Assembly (NCBI RefSeq): GCF_002019735.1
Contig: NZ_KV917378.1
Span: 1,886,869 to 1,950,868, forward strand
DNA length: 64,000 nt
Direction of reading: 5' to 3'
From: Salipaludibacillus agaradhaerens
GTDB lineage: Bacteria; Bacillota; Bacilli; Bacillales; Salisediminibacteriaceae
This document shows, in pieces, positions 9,089-32,562 of the stretch. Each line of letters starts with the position of its first letter. The first letter of the stretch is position 1. The translations under genes and the position numbers were made by a program. A model generated the notes under the pieces. It searched no databases. It was given only the letters and a program-made list of their open reading frames with translations, and was not told the DNA's origin.

Positions 9089-10051
9089 TTATCTAAATAA
9101 CGCTGTAAAGGTTTGCCGCCCCGCAATGCCGTCGACACGTAGTCTAAGTCTGTGTTGGTACGTCCTCACTGCATTTTCCGTAAGCGGGCCAAAAATACCA
9201 TCCACTGGACCTGGAGAAACACCTGAACCGTATAACATTGCTTGCAAAATCCACGTTATATTACCTCTCGCTCCTCGACCAACATTGACAACTGCTTGAC
9301 GTGTTTCAGGTCCCCAAATGCCATCCACCTGAATATTTCTATTAAACTGAACATTTAACTCCGTTTGGAAGCCTCGTAATAGTGCCCCTTTTGTCTCTGG
9401 ACCGAAAATATTATCTACGGCAATGGCTAAACCGTAACGCTCATTTAATGTCGCTTGCACTGACGCAATCGTGTCATTTGTCGGTTGATCACCATCAGAT
9501 CCATCTGATCCGTTTTCTTCTATATTTAATGCGTTCACAATCCCGGTTGCATGACCTTGTGCAATACGGTCTAAAAAGGCATCATCTCGCAATTTCTCGG
9601 CATCACTTTCATTATCAACAAACAAGTTTTCCGTTAAAAGAGCCGACATTGTTGTTTCTCTCAGTACTGCATAGTTAGCGCTTAACATACCTCTGTCAAC
9701 TACATCAATTTCATTGATAATAGCTTCGTGAATAACCTGTTGATACCTTATCGTTTGATCAGGCACCTCACCGTTCCAAATGTACGATTCAAATCCTTCA
9801 CCACCACTTGCATTGGTATGAATAGAAACAAAAAAGTCAGCATTCCAGCTATTCGCCATATCGGCCCTTTCTGATAGTGAAACGAAGCTGTCATCCTCTC
9901 GACTCATATTAATTTGAACACCTTGATACATGTTCAGTAATTCTCTTAACCTCATCGCAATATCAAGCACAATTTCCTTTTCTACTAAGCCATTCCCTGT
10001 TGCTCCACTGTCAGAACCACCATGACCGGGATCGATAAATATCCTTACCAT
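9089..10051 (-). CDS. N-acetylmuramoyl-L-alanine amidase with peptidoglycan-binding repeats
   Basis: 320 residues from the ATG at 10051, which has AAGGAGG in front. Residues 1-175 form an Amidase_3 zinc hydrolase: zinc ligands His in 'IDPGHGGSDSG', Glu in 'GLVEKE' and His in 'VSIHTNA', with a glutamate in 'LLTENLFVDN' as the probable catalytic residue. After a Gly/Asp/Ser linker, the C-terminal half (about 190-320) holds repeated PG_binding_1 motifs ('DNIFGPETKGALLRGFQ', 'DGIWGPETRQAV', 'DGIFGPLTENAVRTYQ'). It cleaves the bond between muramic acid and the stem peptide. There is no signal peptide, as in phage lysins and in the mother-cell lysis amidase CwlC. It is followed by a holin. Confidence 0.9.
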   Translation of the reverse strand: MVRIFIDPGHGGSDSGATGNGLVEKEIVLDIAMRLRELLNMYQGVQINMSREDDSFVSLSERADMANSWNADFFVSIHTNASGGEGFESYIWNGEVPDQTIRYQQVIHEAIINEIDVVDRGMLSANYAVLRETTMSALLTENLFVDNESDAEKLRDDAFLDRIAQGHATGIVNALNIEENGSDGSDGDQPTNDTIASVQATLNERYGLAIAVDNIFGPETKGALLRGFQTELNVQFNRNIQVDGIWGPETRQAVVNVGRGARGNITWILQAMLYGSGVSPGPVDGIFGPLTENAVRTYQHRLRLRVDGIAGRQTFTALFR

Positions 10052-10245
10052 GTGGTGAGCCTCCTTAAATGTCATTTTGTCGCTCACTATAGTTAATGCA
10101 CCGTCATTAAAAATGACAGGACAAGTGTCTTTAAGTAGAAACAAATAGGCGTGATCAAGTTGTTAGCATATTAAAAAACGCTTATCATAACGATAAACGT
10201 TTAAAATAAAGCTTTAGATACAACTTCTAACTCTCATATAGTCTT

Positions 10246-10410: not shown

Positions 10411-10954
10411 CTCTTCCTTAGACCTCCTTTCCCACGTTTGCCTAATAGGCGGTCCGGCGATCATAGATCATACAAGCAAATGACCCTTAGACCCGTAACT
10501 TTGCGTCCCTATCTTTAAACAGGTTTGCCTTTAACTAGTAGGAAGGTTTAATTTTAAAATATTGTCACAGCATTTGAGAATCAGCATGATGTGTAACTGT
10601 AATTTGAAGTATACCTAGTCAAGGTTAAATACAAGTTAAAAAACAGAAAAAAAGTAGTTCTTTTATCTATTTTTTTAGTGTCTATTCCCTTTTATAGTAA
10701 TTTCGACAATAAAAGATAAAGTATTACATTGCGTTTTTTTTCCGGAAGCCATGGTAACATAATTTCTATTTGTATAAGTCCTGAATGAATTTCACAATTC
10801 AAAATTCGAATCATGAAAGTGACCTTCACTTCAAACGGACGCTTTCCCGAGGGCTTGTCTTCAGCTAACTTTTGCTCGGTAAATCCTCGCAAAAGTGGAT
10901 CTTTAGACTGCACTTAATCCTCTGGGAGTCGCCGTCTTACATTTCAGTCACTTT

Positions 10955-28149: not shown

Positions 28150-28512
28150 TTAACTACCACGGTAGGTACTATAACCGCCAGGGGCAATGAGCAGTGGCAC
28201 ATGATAATCGTCATGATTATTCGATATTCCAAAGCTCACTGGTATGACATTTAAAAAAGGGGGATCGTCTGTCACGACCTCCATTGTTGCAAAATAAGCT
28301 CCTACATGGAAAAGTAGCTCATAACGTCCAGCCGTGAGTGCCTCCCCTTCGAGAAGTGGTTGTTCAAGCCTTCCATCATTCATTGTCACTGCTTCTTGAA
28401 GCTTTTCATAGTCTCCTAGATTGTCATTGTACTTCCAAAGTTCAATAGTGAGACCGGCTGCTGGCCTACCAATACTCGTATCAAGAACATGGGTAGTAAG
28501 TTTCCCAGACAT
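28150..28512 (-). CDS. pucM: 5-hydroxyisourate hydrolase
   Basis: 120 residues from the ATG at 28512. AGGTGA of the uricase tail acts as its ribosome-binding site and the uricase stop is one base upstream. Transthyretin-like enzyme: 'LTTHVLDTSIGRPAAGL' with the catalytic His and Arg, 'DYHVPLLIAPGGYSTYRGS' ending in the diagnostic YRGS tetrapeptide. It opens the ring of 5-hydroxyisourate, the product of uricase, to give the OHCU intermediate. Normal family length. Confidence 0.95.
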   Translation of the reverse strand: MSGKLTTHVLDTSIGRPAAGLTIELWKYNDNLGDYEKLQEAVTMNDGRLEQPLLEGEALTAGRYELLFHVGAYFATMEVVTDDPPFLNVIPVSFGISNNHDDYHVPLLIAPGGYSTYRGS

Positions 28513-28513
28513 A

Positions 28514-29470
28514 TTATTCTTCACCTACTATATCTTCGTGATACATTGTGAACCCTTGAAACCCATAAGGGGGACGAGGGTCAGTAAAGACTTTCCCATT
28601 AGTGGGTGATGGGATTTCTTCTCGAACCGTTTCCCATGTACGGTTGTTTGACTCAAACGACACTTCAGCTAGTTGTGGAAATCGCTGAAGGATTCGCTTT
28701 CCAATATCAAAAATTAACTTTTGAATAGACGGTGAATCAACACTGTGAAAGACTGTTTGAGCGATATGTTTCACATGTTCAGCTGCCACATAGTTTTGCG
28801 GATCTTCCCCTTCTCCGTCAACCGAGTTTTTATAGCGCCAATAAATATTTAAATAAATAAACAATGGCCGATCATATGTTTCTGGCAGTGTTGTAAATTC
28901 ATCCTTTATATAGCCTGCAAAGGAACTACCTTTCACTTTAATCAGATGGAGACCGAAGACACCGCTTTGGTGATCCTTCACGCCATATCCCTTTTCTTTT
29001 CGTTCTATTTCTATGGATGCCAAAGGCTTTTCAAGTGTCCCTTCGCGGAACACGATCTCACTAGCTGTTATTTCTCCATTTACTAGAACTGTAGCTTCTG
29101 TAAATGGGAATTGCTTGCCTTTTATATCTACAGCGCTTATATGTGGATACGTATCAAGAAACTTCCTACCTACAAATGTAAGAAATCCTTCCATCGTATT
29201 GCCTTGATACTCCCCTGCATAGTGAAGAATAAAATTCTTCATTGAATCTGTAGCCACGACGAATGAATTATCTCCTTCAGTAAAAGAAGTGAGAAACGCA
29301 TCTCCTTTTAGGGCCACTTGAACGTCCATCCCTAAAATAATATTACTGCGTCCGCTAAACGAAGACTCTGGGATTTTGGTCACATCTGTTAACGGTTTAG
29401 CATAAGTACGATATACGAACACATCCCCTTTACCATAATACATCATGCGTGTCGTCGTTTTTGATTCCAT
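28514..29470 (-). CDS. pucL: Urate oxidase (uricase), stand-alone
   Basis: 318 residues. 'MMYYGKGDVFVYRTY' with the catalytic lysine region, 'VVATDSMKNFI' with the Thr-Asp pair, 'GSSFAGYIKDEFTTLPE' and 'EVSFESNNRTWE' are conserved uricase sequences. It is cofactor-free and oxidises urate to 5-hydroxyisourate. In B. subtilis the same sequence is the C-terminal half of the bifunctional PucL; here the decarboxylase half is a separate gene 28 bases upstream. Its own ribosome-binding site is GAGGGAG. Confidence 0.95.
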   Translation of the reverse strand: MESKTTTRMMYYGKGDVFVYRTYAKPLTDVTKIPESSFSGRSNIILGMDVQVALKGDAFLTSFTEGDNSFVVATDSMKNFILHYAGEYQGNTMEGFLTFVGRKFLDTYPHISAVDIKGKQFPFTEATVLVNGEITASEIVFREGTLEKPLASIEIERKEKGYGVKDHQSGVFGLHLIKVKGSSFAGYIKDEFTTLPETYDRPLFIYLNIYWRYKNSVDGEGEDPQNYVAAEHVKHIAQTVFHSVDSPSIQKLIFDIGKRILQRFPQLAEVSFESNNRTWETVREEIPSPTNGKVFTDPRPPYGFQGFTMYHEDIVGEE

Positions 29471-29498: not shown

Positions 29499-30008
29499 TT
29501 ACACATCATTCTCTTTATGGATAAGCTCATTTAGTCTAAAACCAGCAATTTTGCTCACTTCCTCCAAAGCTGTTTCCATCTCCTTTTCATAAGAATGATG
29601 GCGTCGTTTTTTCATTTTGTGAAGGATTTGCTCTTTCTTTTTCCCTTTTACAGCTACAATGAATGGAAAGCCAAATTGTTTAACATACGCATCGTTAAGG
29701 TCAGCAAACTGATTATATTCTTTCTCTGTGAGCCTATTTAAGCCGGCCTCCCGCTGTTCTTTTCCAGACGTTTCAGAGATTGTAAGCTTTGTCCCAAGGT
29801 CTGGATGAGCACGCAACAAGGATAACTTTAACGCAGTATTCGCTTGATACATTTCCTTTGTCATCCTGTTATGAAGCTGAGTAACACATGTAAATGGACG
29901 ATGTGGCCACGTTTTCTCTGCTACCCATGGAGAATGTTCAAAGACAGGCCCTATGGTCGTTATAAATTCAGACGCCTGCATTGAATTGACTTCCGTTATC
30001 GTATACAT
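29499..30008 (-). CDS. OHCU decarboxylase, stand-alone
   Basis: 169 residues from the ATG at 30008, whose N-terminus 'MYTITEVNSM' aligns with that of B. subtilis PucL; a GTG six codons upstream is an alternative. 'HSPWVAEKTWPHRPF', 'LLRAHPDLGTKL' with the catalytic histidine, 'EQREAGLNRLTEKEYNQFADLNDAYVKQFGFPFIVAVKGK'. It decarboxylates 2-oxo-4-hydroxy-4-carboxy-5-ureidoimidazoline to S-allantoin. It corresponds to the N-terminal half of B. subtilis PucL, split off as a separate gene. The gap to the preceding deaminase gene is 164 bases. Confidence 0.93.
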   Translation of the reverse strand: MYTITEVNSMQASEFITTIGPVFEHSPWVAEKTWPHRPFTCVTQLHNRMTKEMYQANTALKLSLLRAHPDLGTKLTISETSGKEQREAGLNRLTEKEYNQFADLNDAYVKQFGFPFIVAVKGKKKEQILHKMKKRRHHSYEKEMETALEEVSKIAGFRLNELIHKENDV

Positions 30009-30172
30009 CCTACGTTCAACACCCACCTTTCAAAAAATTGTCGCATGCACACCTTAAGTCAGTACCACCTTTTCTTCTGTATGTGTCTACATTAGGCCAG
30101 TGACGTGTACGCGTCATTAGTTACATTAACTAAACTTTTCCGCCATCATTGTAAATCATGCCTAAACAGCCG

Positions 30173-31507
30173 TTAAGAAATATGAGGTAGTCGTTGAATA
30201 AGTCGCTTAATTGAATGGTTTGCCTCTTTTAGGGTCACGTCTTTATCTATCGTTTTCATACAACGTTCTTCCATCACCACATCACCATGAATAATGGTCG
30301 TCTCCACATCAGCACGCGTTGTGGAGTAGACGATACGTGAAATGGTATCAACATCATATGACGGGTACATATGAAAATCATGTAAGTTCAAAATAATGAG
30401 ATCCGCTTTCTTTCCTATTTCTAGGCTCCCAATCTCATGATCCAAGCCCATTGCTTTCGCCCCGTCAATCGTAGCCATTTTAAAGACTGTTTTAGCATCC
30501 ATAGCAGTAGGCCCATGGGCAGGCTTTTGAATAAGAGCTGCTAATCTCATTTCATTAAACATATCTAAGTTATTGTTACATGGAGCGCCGTCTGCTCCTA
30601 AACTGACACATATATGGGCATCAAGTAAACTTGGGATATTTGCTACTCCCGATGCTAATTTTAAATTAGATCCTGGACAATGGCTGACATTTACCTTTCT
30701 TTGTTGAATAATTCGCTTTTCAGTCTCATTTAGCCACACACAATGAGCCAAAATAAGGCGTTCATTTGCAAGACCAAGATAATCAAGATATTCGATATTA
30801 CGCATGCCAGTTTCCGCTTCAACAATTTCTATCTCACCTTTGTTTTCGGAAGCATGAGTATGCACATAGGTGTCATGTTTACGCGAAAGGTTCGCCACTT
30901 CTTTTAATAAAGTTTCTGTACATGAAACGACGAATCGAGGTGAGAAAGCATAATGAATACGTCCGTTCTTTTTGTGCCATTTCTCCATTAAGTCCACACT
31001 TTGCTGTATGGCTTCTGCCGTATTTTCTTGAAGGCGCTTTGGTACTTCGTCACCTTTATCCATCATCACTTTTCCTGACAAAGCTCTTATACCAGATTTT
31101 TCAATCGCTTGAAAGGCATAATCGGTGTGATGAACGGTTTCCATGTCCACAATTGACGTTGTACCACTTTGTATAAGCTCCCCAGTACCTAGCAGCGCAG
31201 AATAATAGATCGATTCCTCATCATGAGCAGCTTCCAGTGGCCATATACGCTTTTTTAACCAATCCATCAGTTCTAAGTCGTCACCTTTCCCTCTGAATAT
31301 CGTTTGACAAAGATGTATATGTGTCTGGATAAACCCCGGTGTCACAACGCGATCCGTAGCATCAATCACCTTATCAGCTTCAGGATAGTCTAAACTTTTG
31401 CCAATATCCTTAATGGTGTCGTGTTCAATATAAATATCACCAATAAATTGGTCATCTTGCTGATTCATTGTAATAAGTTCTGCATTTTTTATTAACAATG
31501 TACTCAT
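30173..31507 (-). CDS. Amidohydrolase-superfamily purine-type deaminase
   Basis: 444 residues with GGAGGTAATGA before the ATG. Zinc-dependent deaminase of the TrzA/MtaD/DadD group: His63 and His65 in 'QTHIHLCQ', His218 and Glu221 in 'VHTHASE', His255 in 'LILAHCVW', Asp306 in 'SLGADGAPC'. Characterised relatives deaminate guanine, 8-oxoguanine, S-adenosylhomocysteine, 5'-deoxyadenosine or triazines. It is the first gene behind the purine riboswitch and heads the decarboxylase-uricase-hydrolase genes, so a purine base such as guanine (giving xanthine for PucCDE) is the likeliest substrate. Overall similarity looks closest to deoxyadenosine/SAH deaminases, so the substrate stays open. Confidence 0.85.
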   Translation of the reverse strand: MSTLLIKNAELITMNQQDDQFIGDIYIEHDTIKDIGKSLDYPEADKVIDATDRVVTPGFIQTHIHLCQTIFRGKGDDLELMDWLKKRIWPLEAAHDEESIYYSALLGTGELIQSGTTSIVDMETVHHTDYAFQAIEKSGIRALSGKVMMDKGDEVPKRLQENTAEAIQQSVDLMEKWHKKNGRIHYAFSPRFVVSCTETLLKEVANLSRKHDTYVHTHASENKGEIEIVEAETGMRNIEYLDYLGLANERLILAHCVWLNETEKRIIQQRKVNVSHCPGSNLKLASGVANIPSLLDAHICVSLGADGAPCNNNLDMFNEMRLAALIQKPAHGPTAMDAKTVFKMATIDGAKAMGLDHEIGSLEIGKKADLIILNLHDFHMYPSYDVDTISRIVYSTTRADVETTIIHGDVVMEERCMKTIDKDVTLKEANHSIKRLIQRLPHIS

Positions 31508-31611
31508 TCATTACCTCCAGCTCATTTGACTTTTGTAATCTGGTAGGAGATGTGAATCCTGAAACACTGACATTTCAAGAGAAGACCCATCCCCCTTTTG
31601 TGTAAAGCTAA

Positions 31612-31648
31612 ACTTCAACCAGTGGACGTTTTCCTTCATCTCCCACTT
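31612..31648 (+). repeat. Partial copy E of the dispersed repeat fused to another hairpin
   Basis: ACTTCAACCAGTGGACGTTT followed by CTCCCACTT matches only the first hairpin of the family. It is directly joined to the three-way structure on its right, with which it shares the CCCACTT strand. Confidence 0.4.
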
Positions 31649-31700
31649 AAACTTTTCGATCTTCTTAAAGATCGGGGTTTTACTGCCCCTTAAAAGTGGG
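31642..31700. other. Potential three-way-junction structure in the deaminase leader
   Basis: Outer stem CCCACTT (31642-31648) / AAGTGGG (31694-31700) encloses two perfect hairpins: GATCTT-CTTA-AAGATC (31658-31673) and GGGG-TTTTACTG-CCCC (31674-31689). It lies between the riboswitch terminator and the deaminase start. Function unknown; it could be a repeat or part of the leader RNA. Confidence 0.5.
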
Positions 31701-31732
31701 ATAAAACACTGCCATAGGTAATCACTTTAATA

Positions 31733-31781
31733 TAAATAAAAAAACTACGAAAAAAGGCATGTTTCACCTTTATTCGTAGTT
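31733..31781 (-). terminator. Intrinsic terminator of the purine riboswitch
   Basis: Minus strand: AACTACGAATAAAGG pairs with CCTTTTTTCGTAGTT (one mismatch in 15 pairs), 9-base loop, then TTTTTTTATTTAT. Its 5' arm contains the whole 3' strand of aptamer stem P1, so P1 and terminator cannot coexist. Confidence 0.88.
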
Positions 31782-31838
31782 AGGAATTTACGGTTCCTAA
31801 TAGAGACCCTCAAACCTTATTTTTGAGGTTATACGAAT
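31733..31838 (-). promoter_or_regulatory. Purine riboswitch (guanine-class C74), predicted ON switch
   Basis: Aptamer at 31838-31772 on the minus strand. P1 ATTCGTA/TACGAAT; J1/2 TAA; P2 CCTCAAA/TTTGAGG with loop AATAAGG; J2/3 GTCTCTA; P3 TTAGGAA/TTCCTAA with loop CCGTAAA; then the single J3/1 base C that corresponds to C74 of the B. subtilis xpt aptamer. All stems are perfect, and the loop GG and CC needed for loop-loop pairing are present. C74 specifies guanine, hypoxanthine or xanthine rather than adenine. The terminator uses the P1 3' strand, the arrangement of the adenine-activated pbuE switch, so ligand should prevent termination. It sits 86 bases after pucB and 226 before the deaminase, controlling the deaminase-uricase part. 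Confidence 0.92.
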
Positions 31839-31923
31839 TCTCCCATCATATGGTGCCATTATCGTTAACACGTTCAAATGTAATTTTGTTATGCTACTAG
31901 TTTAGCAAATACATCGATTTTGT

Positions 31924-32562
31924 TTATGTTGATGTCAGATCATATGCCCCTTTTTTTGCTTGTTTATAGTCTGCAGGCGTATCGATATCAATAACTACGA
32001 ATGGATCGGTCACTTGTATACAATACTGCTCGATATGCTGCATCATTCTTAGACCTCCTTTATCTCCTTTACATGCTGCATGGTATGGCATATCAGGTGA
32101 GTGTATATGCCCCCAATAGACTGGATGACCTGGCATTCCTCGATAGTATGGTCGCATTGTAAAAGGGGACGTGAGCTCCATTCCTTTGATTTCTCCTTCA
32201 TCAATCACCGTTTTTATTGTCTCTGACTTAATAAATGGTTGATCCGCTAGAAATATCATGACTGAATCCACATCTTCAGGGATGACACTAAAACCTTTCA
32301 TCAACGATGATGTCTGTCCTTCTTCATATCGTGTGTGACGCAACCACTCTAACCTCGGTGTCTCAATTGTAATGGCCGTTCTAATCGCAGCTTCTTCATG
32401 ACCTAAAATGACGATAACTTTTTCAAAAGGTTCTTTCAATCGTTGTTGGACCACATGTTCCAACATTGGGACACCTTGTAGTGTGAGCAATTGCTTCGCT
32501 GTTCCCATCCTTGAAGACAAACCAGCTGCCAAAATAACCGCATATATTCTAGACGCTGTCAT
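31924..32562 (-). CDS. pucB: Molybdenum cofactor nucleotidyltransferase for xanthine dehydrogenase
   Basis: 212 residues, NTP_transf_3 fold of the MocA type: 'VILAAGLSSRMGTAKQLLTLQG' binds the nucleotide, 'FLADQPFI' holds the metal-binding aspartate, 'GMPGHPVYWG' and 'VVIDIDTPADY' are family hallmarks. It transfers CMP to molybdopterin to give the cytosine dinucleotide form used by xanthine dehydrogenases. It is the last gene of the xanthine dehydrogenase operon. Its ATG follows the pucA stop TAA directly, with little of its own ribosome-binding site, so it is translationally coupled. Confidence 0.88.
   Translation of the reverse strand: MTASRIYAVILAAGLSSRMGTAKQLLTLQGVPMLEHVVQQRLKEPFEKVIVILGHEEAAIRTAITIETPRLEWLRHTRYEEGQTSSLMKGFSVIPEDVDSVMIFLADQPFIKSETIKTVIDEGEIKGMELTSPFTMRPYYRGMPGHPVYWGHIHSPDMPYHAACKGDKGGLRMMQHIEQYCIQVTDPFVVIDIDTPADYKQAKKGAYDLTST

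Follow-up and report, generated by a model that had tools for sequence, protein, structure and literature searches.

A C74 purine riboswitch with a probable ON arrangement before purine-degradation genes in Salipaludibacillus agaradhaerens

Results

Purine-degradation genes flank the switch

The window (the whole stretch of Salipaludibacillus agaradhaerens DNA that was analyzed, 64,000 nucleotides of contig NZ_KV917378.1) carries purine-degradation genes on its minus strand, both 3′ and 5′ of the element described here:

28150..28524, minus strand: hydroxyisourate hydrolase (TIGR02962, 122.4 bits, above cut-off)
28514..29470, minus strand: uricase (TIGR03383, 269.5 bits, above cut-off)
29499..30026, minus strand: OHCU decarboxylase (TIGR03164, 194.1 bits, above cut-off)
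30173..31507, minus strand: amidohydrolase-family deaminase, the first gene 3′ of the switch (NCBIfam PRK07228, 706.7 bits)
31924..32562, minus strand: MocA/PucB-like gene directly upstream of the switch (Pfam NTP_transf_3)

The initial annotation, made from the sequence alone, had named the four downstream products in the same way, and the family models agree, placing the deaminase in the amidohydrolase family. That deaminase passes PRK07228, a model named for 5′-deoxyadenosine deaminase (706.7 bits against a cut-off of 522), and falls below the cut-offs of the guanine deaminase model (266.5 of 375.4) and the 8-oxoguanine deaminase model (291.3 of 532). Its best PDB match over the full length is an MTA/SAH deaminase; for the central 121 residues, which include the PRFxxSC motif, the best matches are three guanine deaminases (6oh9, 6ohb, 2uz9). 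Based on this central match and on the neighboring genes, we take the first gene after the switch to be, probably, a guanine deaminase.

Upstream of the switch, the same strand carries the mocA-like gene, an xdhC-like gene, genes for three xanthine dehydrogenase subunits, and pucR. Since the mocA-like stop codon lies about 85 nt before P1 of the aptamer, the switch sits between genes of one strand. The corresponding gap is 30 nt in the close relative G007 and 16 nt in the relative L033, distances that leave little space for a promoter, whereas in 19 of the 36 linked loci considered below the nearest ORF of at least 100 residues is on the opposite strand, so that elsewhere the switch would have its own start; these gap and strand figures are rough, as any open frame was counted.

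A complete aptamer with C74

The Rfam purine riboswitch model, RF00167, matches the minus strand of the window at 31856-31757 with 75.3 bits, against a gathering threshold of 37 (E 1.4e-11 over the whole window). The parts of the aptamer are as follows:

31757..31856, minus strand: purine riboswitch aptamer (RF00167 model positions 1-102 of 102, 75.3 bits)
31832..31838, minus strand: P1 5′ strand, ATTCGTA (computed pairing and sequence)
31808..31828, minus strand: P2 stem and loop L2 (7 standard pairs; Rfam alignment)
31780..31800, minus strand: P3 stem and loop L3, CCGTAAA (7 standard pairs; Rfam alignment)
31779..31779, minus strand: C74 (Rfam alignment)
31772..31778, minus strand: P1 3′ strand, TACGAAT, common to the 5′ arm of the terminator (computed pairing)

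P1 comprises 7 bp, 31838-31832 with 31778-31772, with standard pairs throughout. Our residue numbers come from a hand alignment and are presumably those of the B. subtilis xpt aptamer. In this numbering the pocket has U22, U47, U51 and C74, with C at position 48, U at 53 and A at 73, and both J2/3 and J3/1 have their canonical lengths. In characterized purine riboswitches, C74 is the pairing partner of guanine, hypoxanthine or xanthine. The full-length match and the C at 31779 bear out the initial annotation's description of a complete C74 aptamer, and the span that it had given, 31733-31838, agrees with the aptamer and terminator found here.

The aptamer and a terminator share bases

An intrinsic terminator overlaps the 3′ end of the aptamer:

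31743..31781, minus strand: terminator hairpin AACTACGAATAAAGG/CCTTTTTTCGTAGTT (15 pairs, one internal U·U mismatch, −16.4 kcal/mol)
31738..31744, minus strand: terminator T-run, seven T, the first two paired (sequence)

The 3′ strand of P1 had been described as lying within the 5′ arm of a 15-bp terminator; recomputation gives the same 15 pairs, with six of the seven P1 3′ bases (residues 75-81) paired in the hairpin. Both the P1 5′ strand and the 3′ arm of the terminator contain the motif TTCGTA and so compete for the P1 3′ strand; having bases in common makes the aptamer and the terminator mutually exclusive. A generic terminator scan does not list the hairpin, which falls outside the limits set there on loop size and mismatches. 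The fold of aptamer plus terminator has a z score of −3.7, with 1 of 200 shuffles equally good.

In step-wise folding of the window leader, the aptamer remains the minimum-energy structure as far as 30 nt past C74. The terminator is then ahead by 4.9 kcal/mol at 33 nt, 9.2 at 36 nt and 9.6 at 39-60 nt past C74, and its lead drops to 5.9-6.4 kcal/mol with a leader of 63-72 nt; in these models, that is, it displaces P1 once its 3′ arm emerges. The energies omit the ligand and the loop–loop contacts, so ligand binding could plausibly tip the balance. Folding also shows a 6-bp hairpin that can form alongside the intact aptamer and that might cause weak termination.

Could this be an ordinary OFF switch with an overlooked antiterminator? 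OFF control is the published rule for guanine-I riboswitches (in the available part of PMC9295807), and in this genome the remaining four purine switches stand before the usual OFF targets xpt, a permease, purE and guaA. However, neither free nor aptamer-forced folds of the window leader contain an antiterminator, which in a separate pairing would have reversed the logic, and the longest stretch of an alternative arm complementary to the P1 3′ strand is 3 nt in the window, compared with 9-11 nt in the guaA leaders of the genus. Together with the mutual exclusion of aptamer and terminator through their common bases, these folds make an OFF switch extremely improbable.

Near the leader, no second known RNA was found at a permissive Rfam threshold. 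A three-way-junction-like sequence 3′ of the terminator and ahead of the deaminase gene proved to be a dispersed repeat, about 104 bases long (window 31603-31706, minus strand). It gives 53 match rows in its own genome, itself included, with some copies split into two halves; of 9 copies inspected, 8 overlap no ORF of at least 120 residues, and the repeat is not present in the leaders of the relatives L017-L020.

Conservation of the arrangement in relatives

Within the genus, 4 of 8 genomes encode the deaminase (E ≤ 1e-100), and in the same four a fifth RF00167 match lies immediately 5′ of its gene. In an evenly drawn sample of the order, the deaminase was found in 73 of 397 genomes (E ≤ 1e-150). 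We compared 72 loci besides the window: 29 from order genomes with ready loci, 40 from the 43 others (all except G264, G279 and G285), and 3 from the genus. RF00167 matched above threshold at 35 of these deaminase loci and gave no match at the other 37. The aptamer lies upstream of the deaminase gene in 33 cases; in the other two (L083, L094) it follows that gene and precedes the gene for the [2Fe-2S] subunit of xanthine dehydrogenase. All 36 linked aptamers, the window's included, have C74.

An aptamer was classified as ON under a strict rule when at least 5 of residues 75-81, with 75 or 76 among them, were paired in a hairpin with a T-rich tail, and when the energy of that hairpin was at most −12 kcal/mol and 4 kcal/mol below that of any later hairpin; the rule was adjusted after the data had been seen, and shuffles were run once it was fixed. 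By this rule, 31 of the 36 deaminase- or xanthine dehydrogenase-linked aptamers, including that of the window, have the ON geometry, versus 0 of 216 when the sequence 3′ of P1 was shuffled. The exceptions, L021, L023, L041, L082 and L084, have no P1-overlapping terminator by the strict classifier, so the ON wiring is not universal. Among the other purine switches of the genus (loci were available for 30 of 32), none was ON; 22 had a later T-tailed hairpin, which defines our class “OFF/other” and does not in itself imply OFF control, and 8 had none. Our first classifier had called 28 of the 36 linked aptamers and 0 of the 30 genus controls ON, missing L027, L037 and L101 through its limits on start and tail. 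A looser version made ON calls at 10 of the 60 C74 sites of the order sample, at 15 of the 36 in six named genomes and at 1 of the 30 genus controls; guaA-type antiterminators were among these calls, and the rule was therefore tightened.

The terminator pairs 9-14 nt past C74 vary across relatives, with A-T, T-A, G-C and C-G all occurring, although reading them from each sequence's own best hairpin biases the comparison towards pairing. The overlap of P1 and terminator in 31 of 36 linked aptamers, the variation of the outer pairs and the C74 pocket common to all 31 ON members support the ON reading put forward in the initial annotation.

A different account would be decay, with an aptamer that no longer binds and a hairpin that acts as a fixed attenuator. 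The five linked relatives without the terminator, one of which (L041) scores only 37 bits, would fit this idea, as would the insertion of a dispersed repeat into the window leader 3′ of the terminator. However, the window aptamer retains every contact base as well as its high score, and both aptamer and terminator are kept in G007, and we regard decay as very unlikely.

A scan of the genome collection, which required the ON layout and so shows spread rather than frequency, returned 33 stretches, 19 of which contain an aptamer by eye: 17 before the same deaminase, 1 before xanthine dehydrogenase and 1 ending at a contig end. The hosts of the ON layout include Niallia, Halalkalibacter, Evansella, Domibacillus, Sporolactobacillus, Paenibacillus and Virgibacillus. 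One of the 19, in Alkalihalobacillus deserti (L140), has an ON-layout leader before the deaminase and an aptamer without part of J2/3.

ON geometry among purine riboswitches of the order

In 14 unselected genomes of the order, which hold 62 sites, the strict rule gave 5 ON among 60 C74 sites (52 others have a later T-tailed hairpin and 3 have neither), and both U74 sites were ON. The five C74 ON sites precede the deaminase (L212), GMP reductases of two further genera (L223, identified by TIGR01306, and L228, recognized by a start nearly identical to it), an AzgA-like permease (L237, where the first ORF found begins about 470 nt downstream) and an MFS transporter (L239), for which the best family model is Cmx/CmrA, far below cut-off. 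The L239 transporter may resemble PbuE. The two U74 ON sites precede an adenosine deaminase and an MFS transporter similar to that of L239. The six named genomes were picked because the ON pattern occurs in them; of their 36 C74 sites 11 are ON, as is their single U74 site, which is followed by a gene that reads as an adenine deaminase.

The ON logic had been proposed to be uncommon for a C74 aptamer. As a minority mode, 5 of 60 unselected sites, this holds, but close variants wired as ON switches have been published (PMC9295807, available part), so the logic is not without precedent.

In Paenibacillus, two C74 aptamers (L169, L170) stand before an FAD-dependent oxidoreductase-like gene; L170 is ON by the strict rule, and L169 is not, though it looks ON by eye.

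Discussion

Ligand and pocket

U22, U47, U51 and C74 are present in all 31 ON members of the deaminase/xanthine dehydrogenase group, and two other positions vary. At position 73, 22 members have G and 9 have A; at position 53, 22 have C, 4 have U, 3 have G and 2 have A. The 55 non-ON C74 sites of the order sample, in contrast, have A73 in 53 cases and C53 in 54, and the genus controls have A73 in 29 of 30 and C53 in 30 of 30. Judging from the sequences, this second-shell difference could shift the ligand range.

The same ON mechanics might thus serve another natural ligand (xanthine, hypoxanthine or 8-oxoguanine), tuned by positions 53 and 73. Besides the G73 in 22 of 31 ON members and the base other than C53 in 9 of 31, such a reading draws on the two linked switches that precede xanthine dehydrogenase rather than the deaminase, and on published scaffold variants tied to degradation genes, which sense xanthine (available part of PMC9295807) or, reportedly, 8-oxoguanine. 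Against it, the contact bases U22, U51 and C74 given there are kept in 31 of 31, J2/3 and J3/1 in the window have canonical lengths, the window deaminase, at 291 bits, is far under the cut-off of 532 for 8-oxoguanine deaminases, and the likely 8-oxoguanine member L178, from Paenibacillus sinensis, has a different J2/3. We consider another ligand unlikely, and continue with a guanine-type switch as the preferred reading.

Relation to known riboswitches

The pbuE adenine riboswitch is an ON switch that acts through a ligand-stabilized P1. The element in the window differs from it in having C74 (31779) instead of U74 and, we infer, a guanine-type ligand instead of adenine. The two would be alike in that the ligand-held P1 withholds bases from the terminator. 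The general logic, turning ON by burying pieces of the terminator, is described for adenine, glycine and lysine switches in the available part of PMC2258182.

Guanine riboswitches commonly lower expression, and the common guanine-I class (RF00167; B. subtilis xpt and pbuG) is called OFF in the available part of PMC9295807. The window element has the same architecture, with U22, U47, U51 and C74 and no junction insertions, but the published guanine-I platform is OFF via an antiterminator, whereas in the window P1 and the terminator overlap directly; moreover, guanine-I targets are genes of synthesis, salvage or uptake, whereas the target here is degradation. A search of open-licence literature, which leaves absence unproven, turned up no account of guanine deaminase, uricase or xanthine dehydrogenase genes preceded by a guanine-I switch of the ON type.

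The nearest published likenesses are variants of the scaffold. According to the available part of PMC9295807, which also mentions an 8-oxoguanine variant, guanine-II, xanthine-II and 2′-dG-III share with the window the three-stem scaffold, a predicted ON mode and an association with purine genes. Xanthine-II has U51G and insertions in J2-3 and J3-1, whereas the window has U51 and no insertions; 2′-dG-III has C73 as the proposed ligand partner, altered joining regions and a nucleoside hydrolase gene, whereas the window has A73 and a deaminase gene (same source). Guanine-II, which we compared by description, keeps U51 and has a one-nucleotide J2-3 insertion that the window does not (same source). 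Some linked relatives (e.g., L109 and L033) have an extra base near J2-3/P3, which blurs the boundary with guanine-II.

Hamal Dhakal et al. reportedly described, in PNAS in 2023, an 8-oxoguanine riboswitch that is ON, stands before a purine deaminase, and has an altered pocket and a deaminase of another family. The ON mode and the purine deaminase would be likenesses to the window, and the pocket and the deaminase family would be differences. L178 is an ON-type aptamer with J2/3 one base shorter, located before an 8-oxoguanine-deaminase-like gene, and probably belongs to that published class. A further aptamer, L179, has a J3/1 insertion, and the gene that follows it resembles that of a Rieske dioxygenase.

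Proposed mechanism and implications

Given the aptamer, its pocket bases, the terminator overlap and their conservation across relatives, we think it very probable that the element in the window is a transcriptional guanine-type (C74) riboswitch wired ON before purine-degradation genes, with ligand and direction deduced from these features. The nascent RNA would fold the aptamer first; without ligand, the 3′ arm of the terminator (CGTAG), on emerging, would capture the P1 3′ strand, complete the 15-pair terminator and stop transcription before the deaminase gene. A bound purine base, most likely guanine, would hold P1 and block the full terminator, and polymerase would then read into the genes for the deaminase, OHCU decarboxylase, uricase and hydroxyisourate hydrolase. 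In this way, an excess of guanine would turn on its own breakdown. As the switch stands on the same strand as the xanthine dehydrogenase cluster, 3′ of that cluster's mocA-like gene, it may in addition gate transcription reading through from there.

A broader proposal, which we offer tentatively and with more doubt than conviction, is that the deaminase- and xanthine dehydrogenase-linked switches of Bacillales and Paenibacillus make up an ON class of their own, as yet unnamed, within the guanine scaffold. Such a class would have P1 shared with the terminator, relaxed positions 53 and 73 (mostly C53 with G73) and a ligand range that may be unlike that of guanine-I, and in some genomes would gate the second half of a purine-degradation operon from within.

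If the ON reading is right, the common guanine aptamer works both ways in one cell, OFF for synthesis and uptake and ON for disposal, which would provide a natural pair in which to study how direction is determined by the expression platform alone, as well as a guanine-responsive ON part for engineering. It would also suggest that in these bacteria the enzyme widely annotated as 5′-deoxyadenosine deaminase acts as a guanine deaminase.

A second riboswitch in the window

Elsewhere in the window, a c-di-GMP-I riboswitch (RF01051, 68 bits) lies at 10445-10539 on the minus strand, upstream of a gene at 9089-10144 whose product, by eye, resembles an N-acetylmuramoyl-L-alanine amidase with peptidoglycan-binding repeats.
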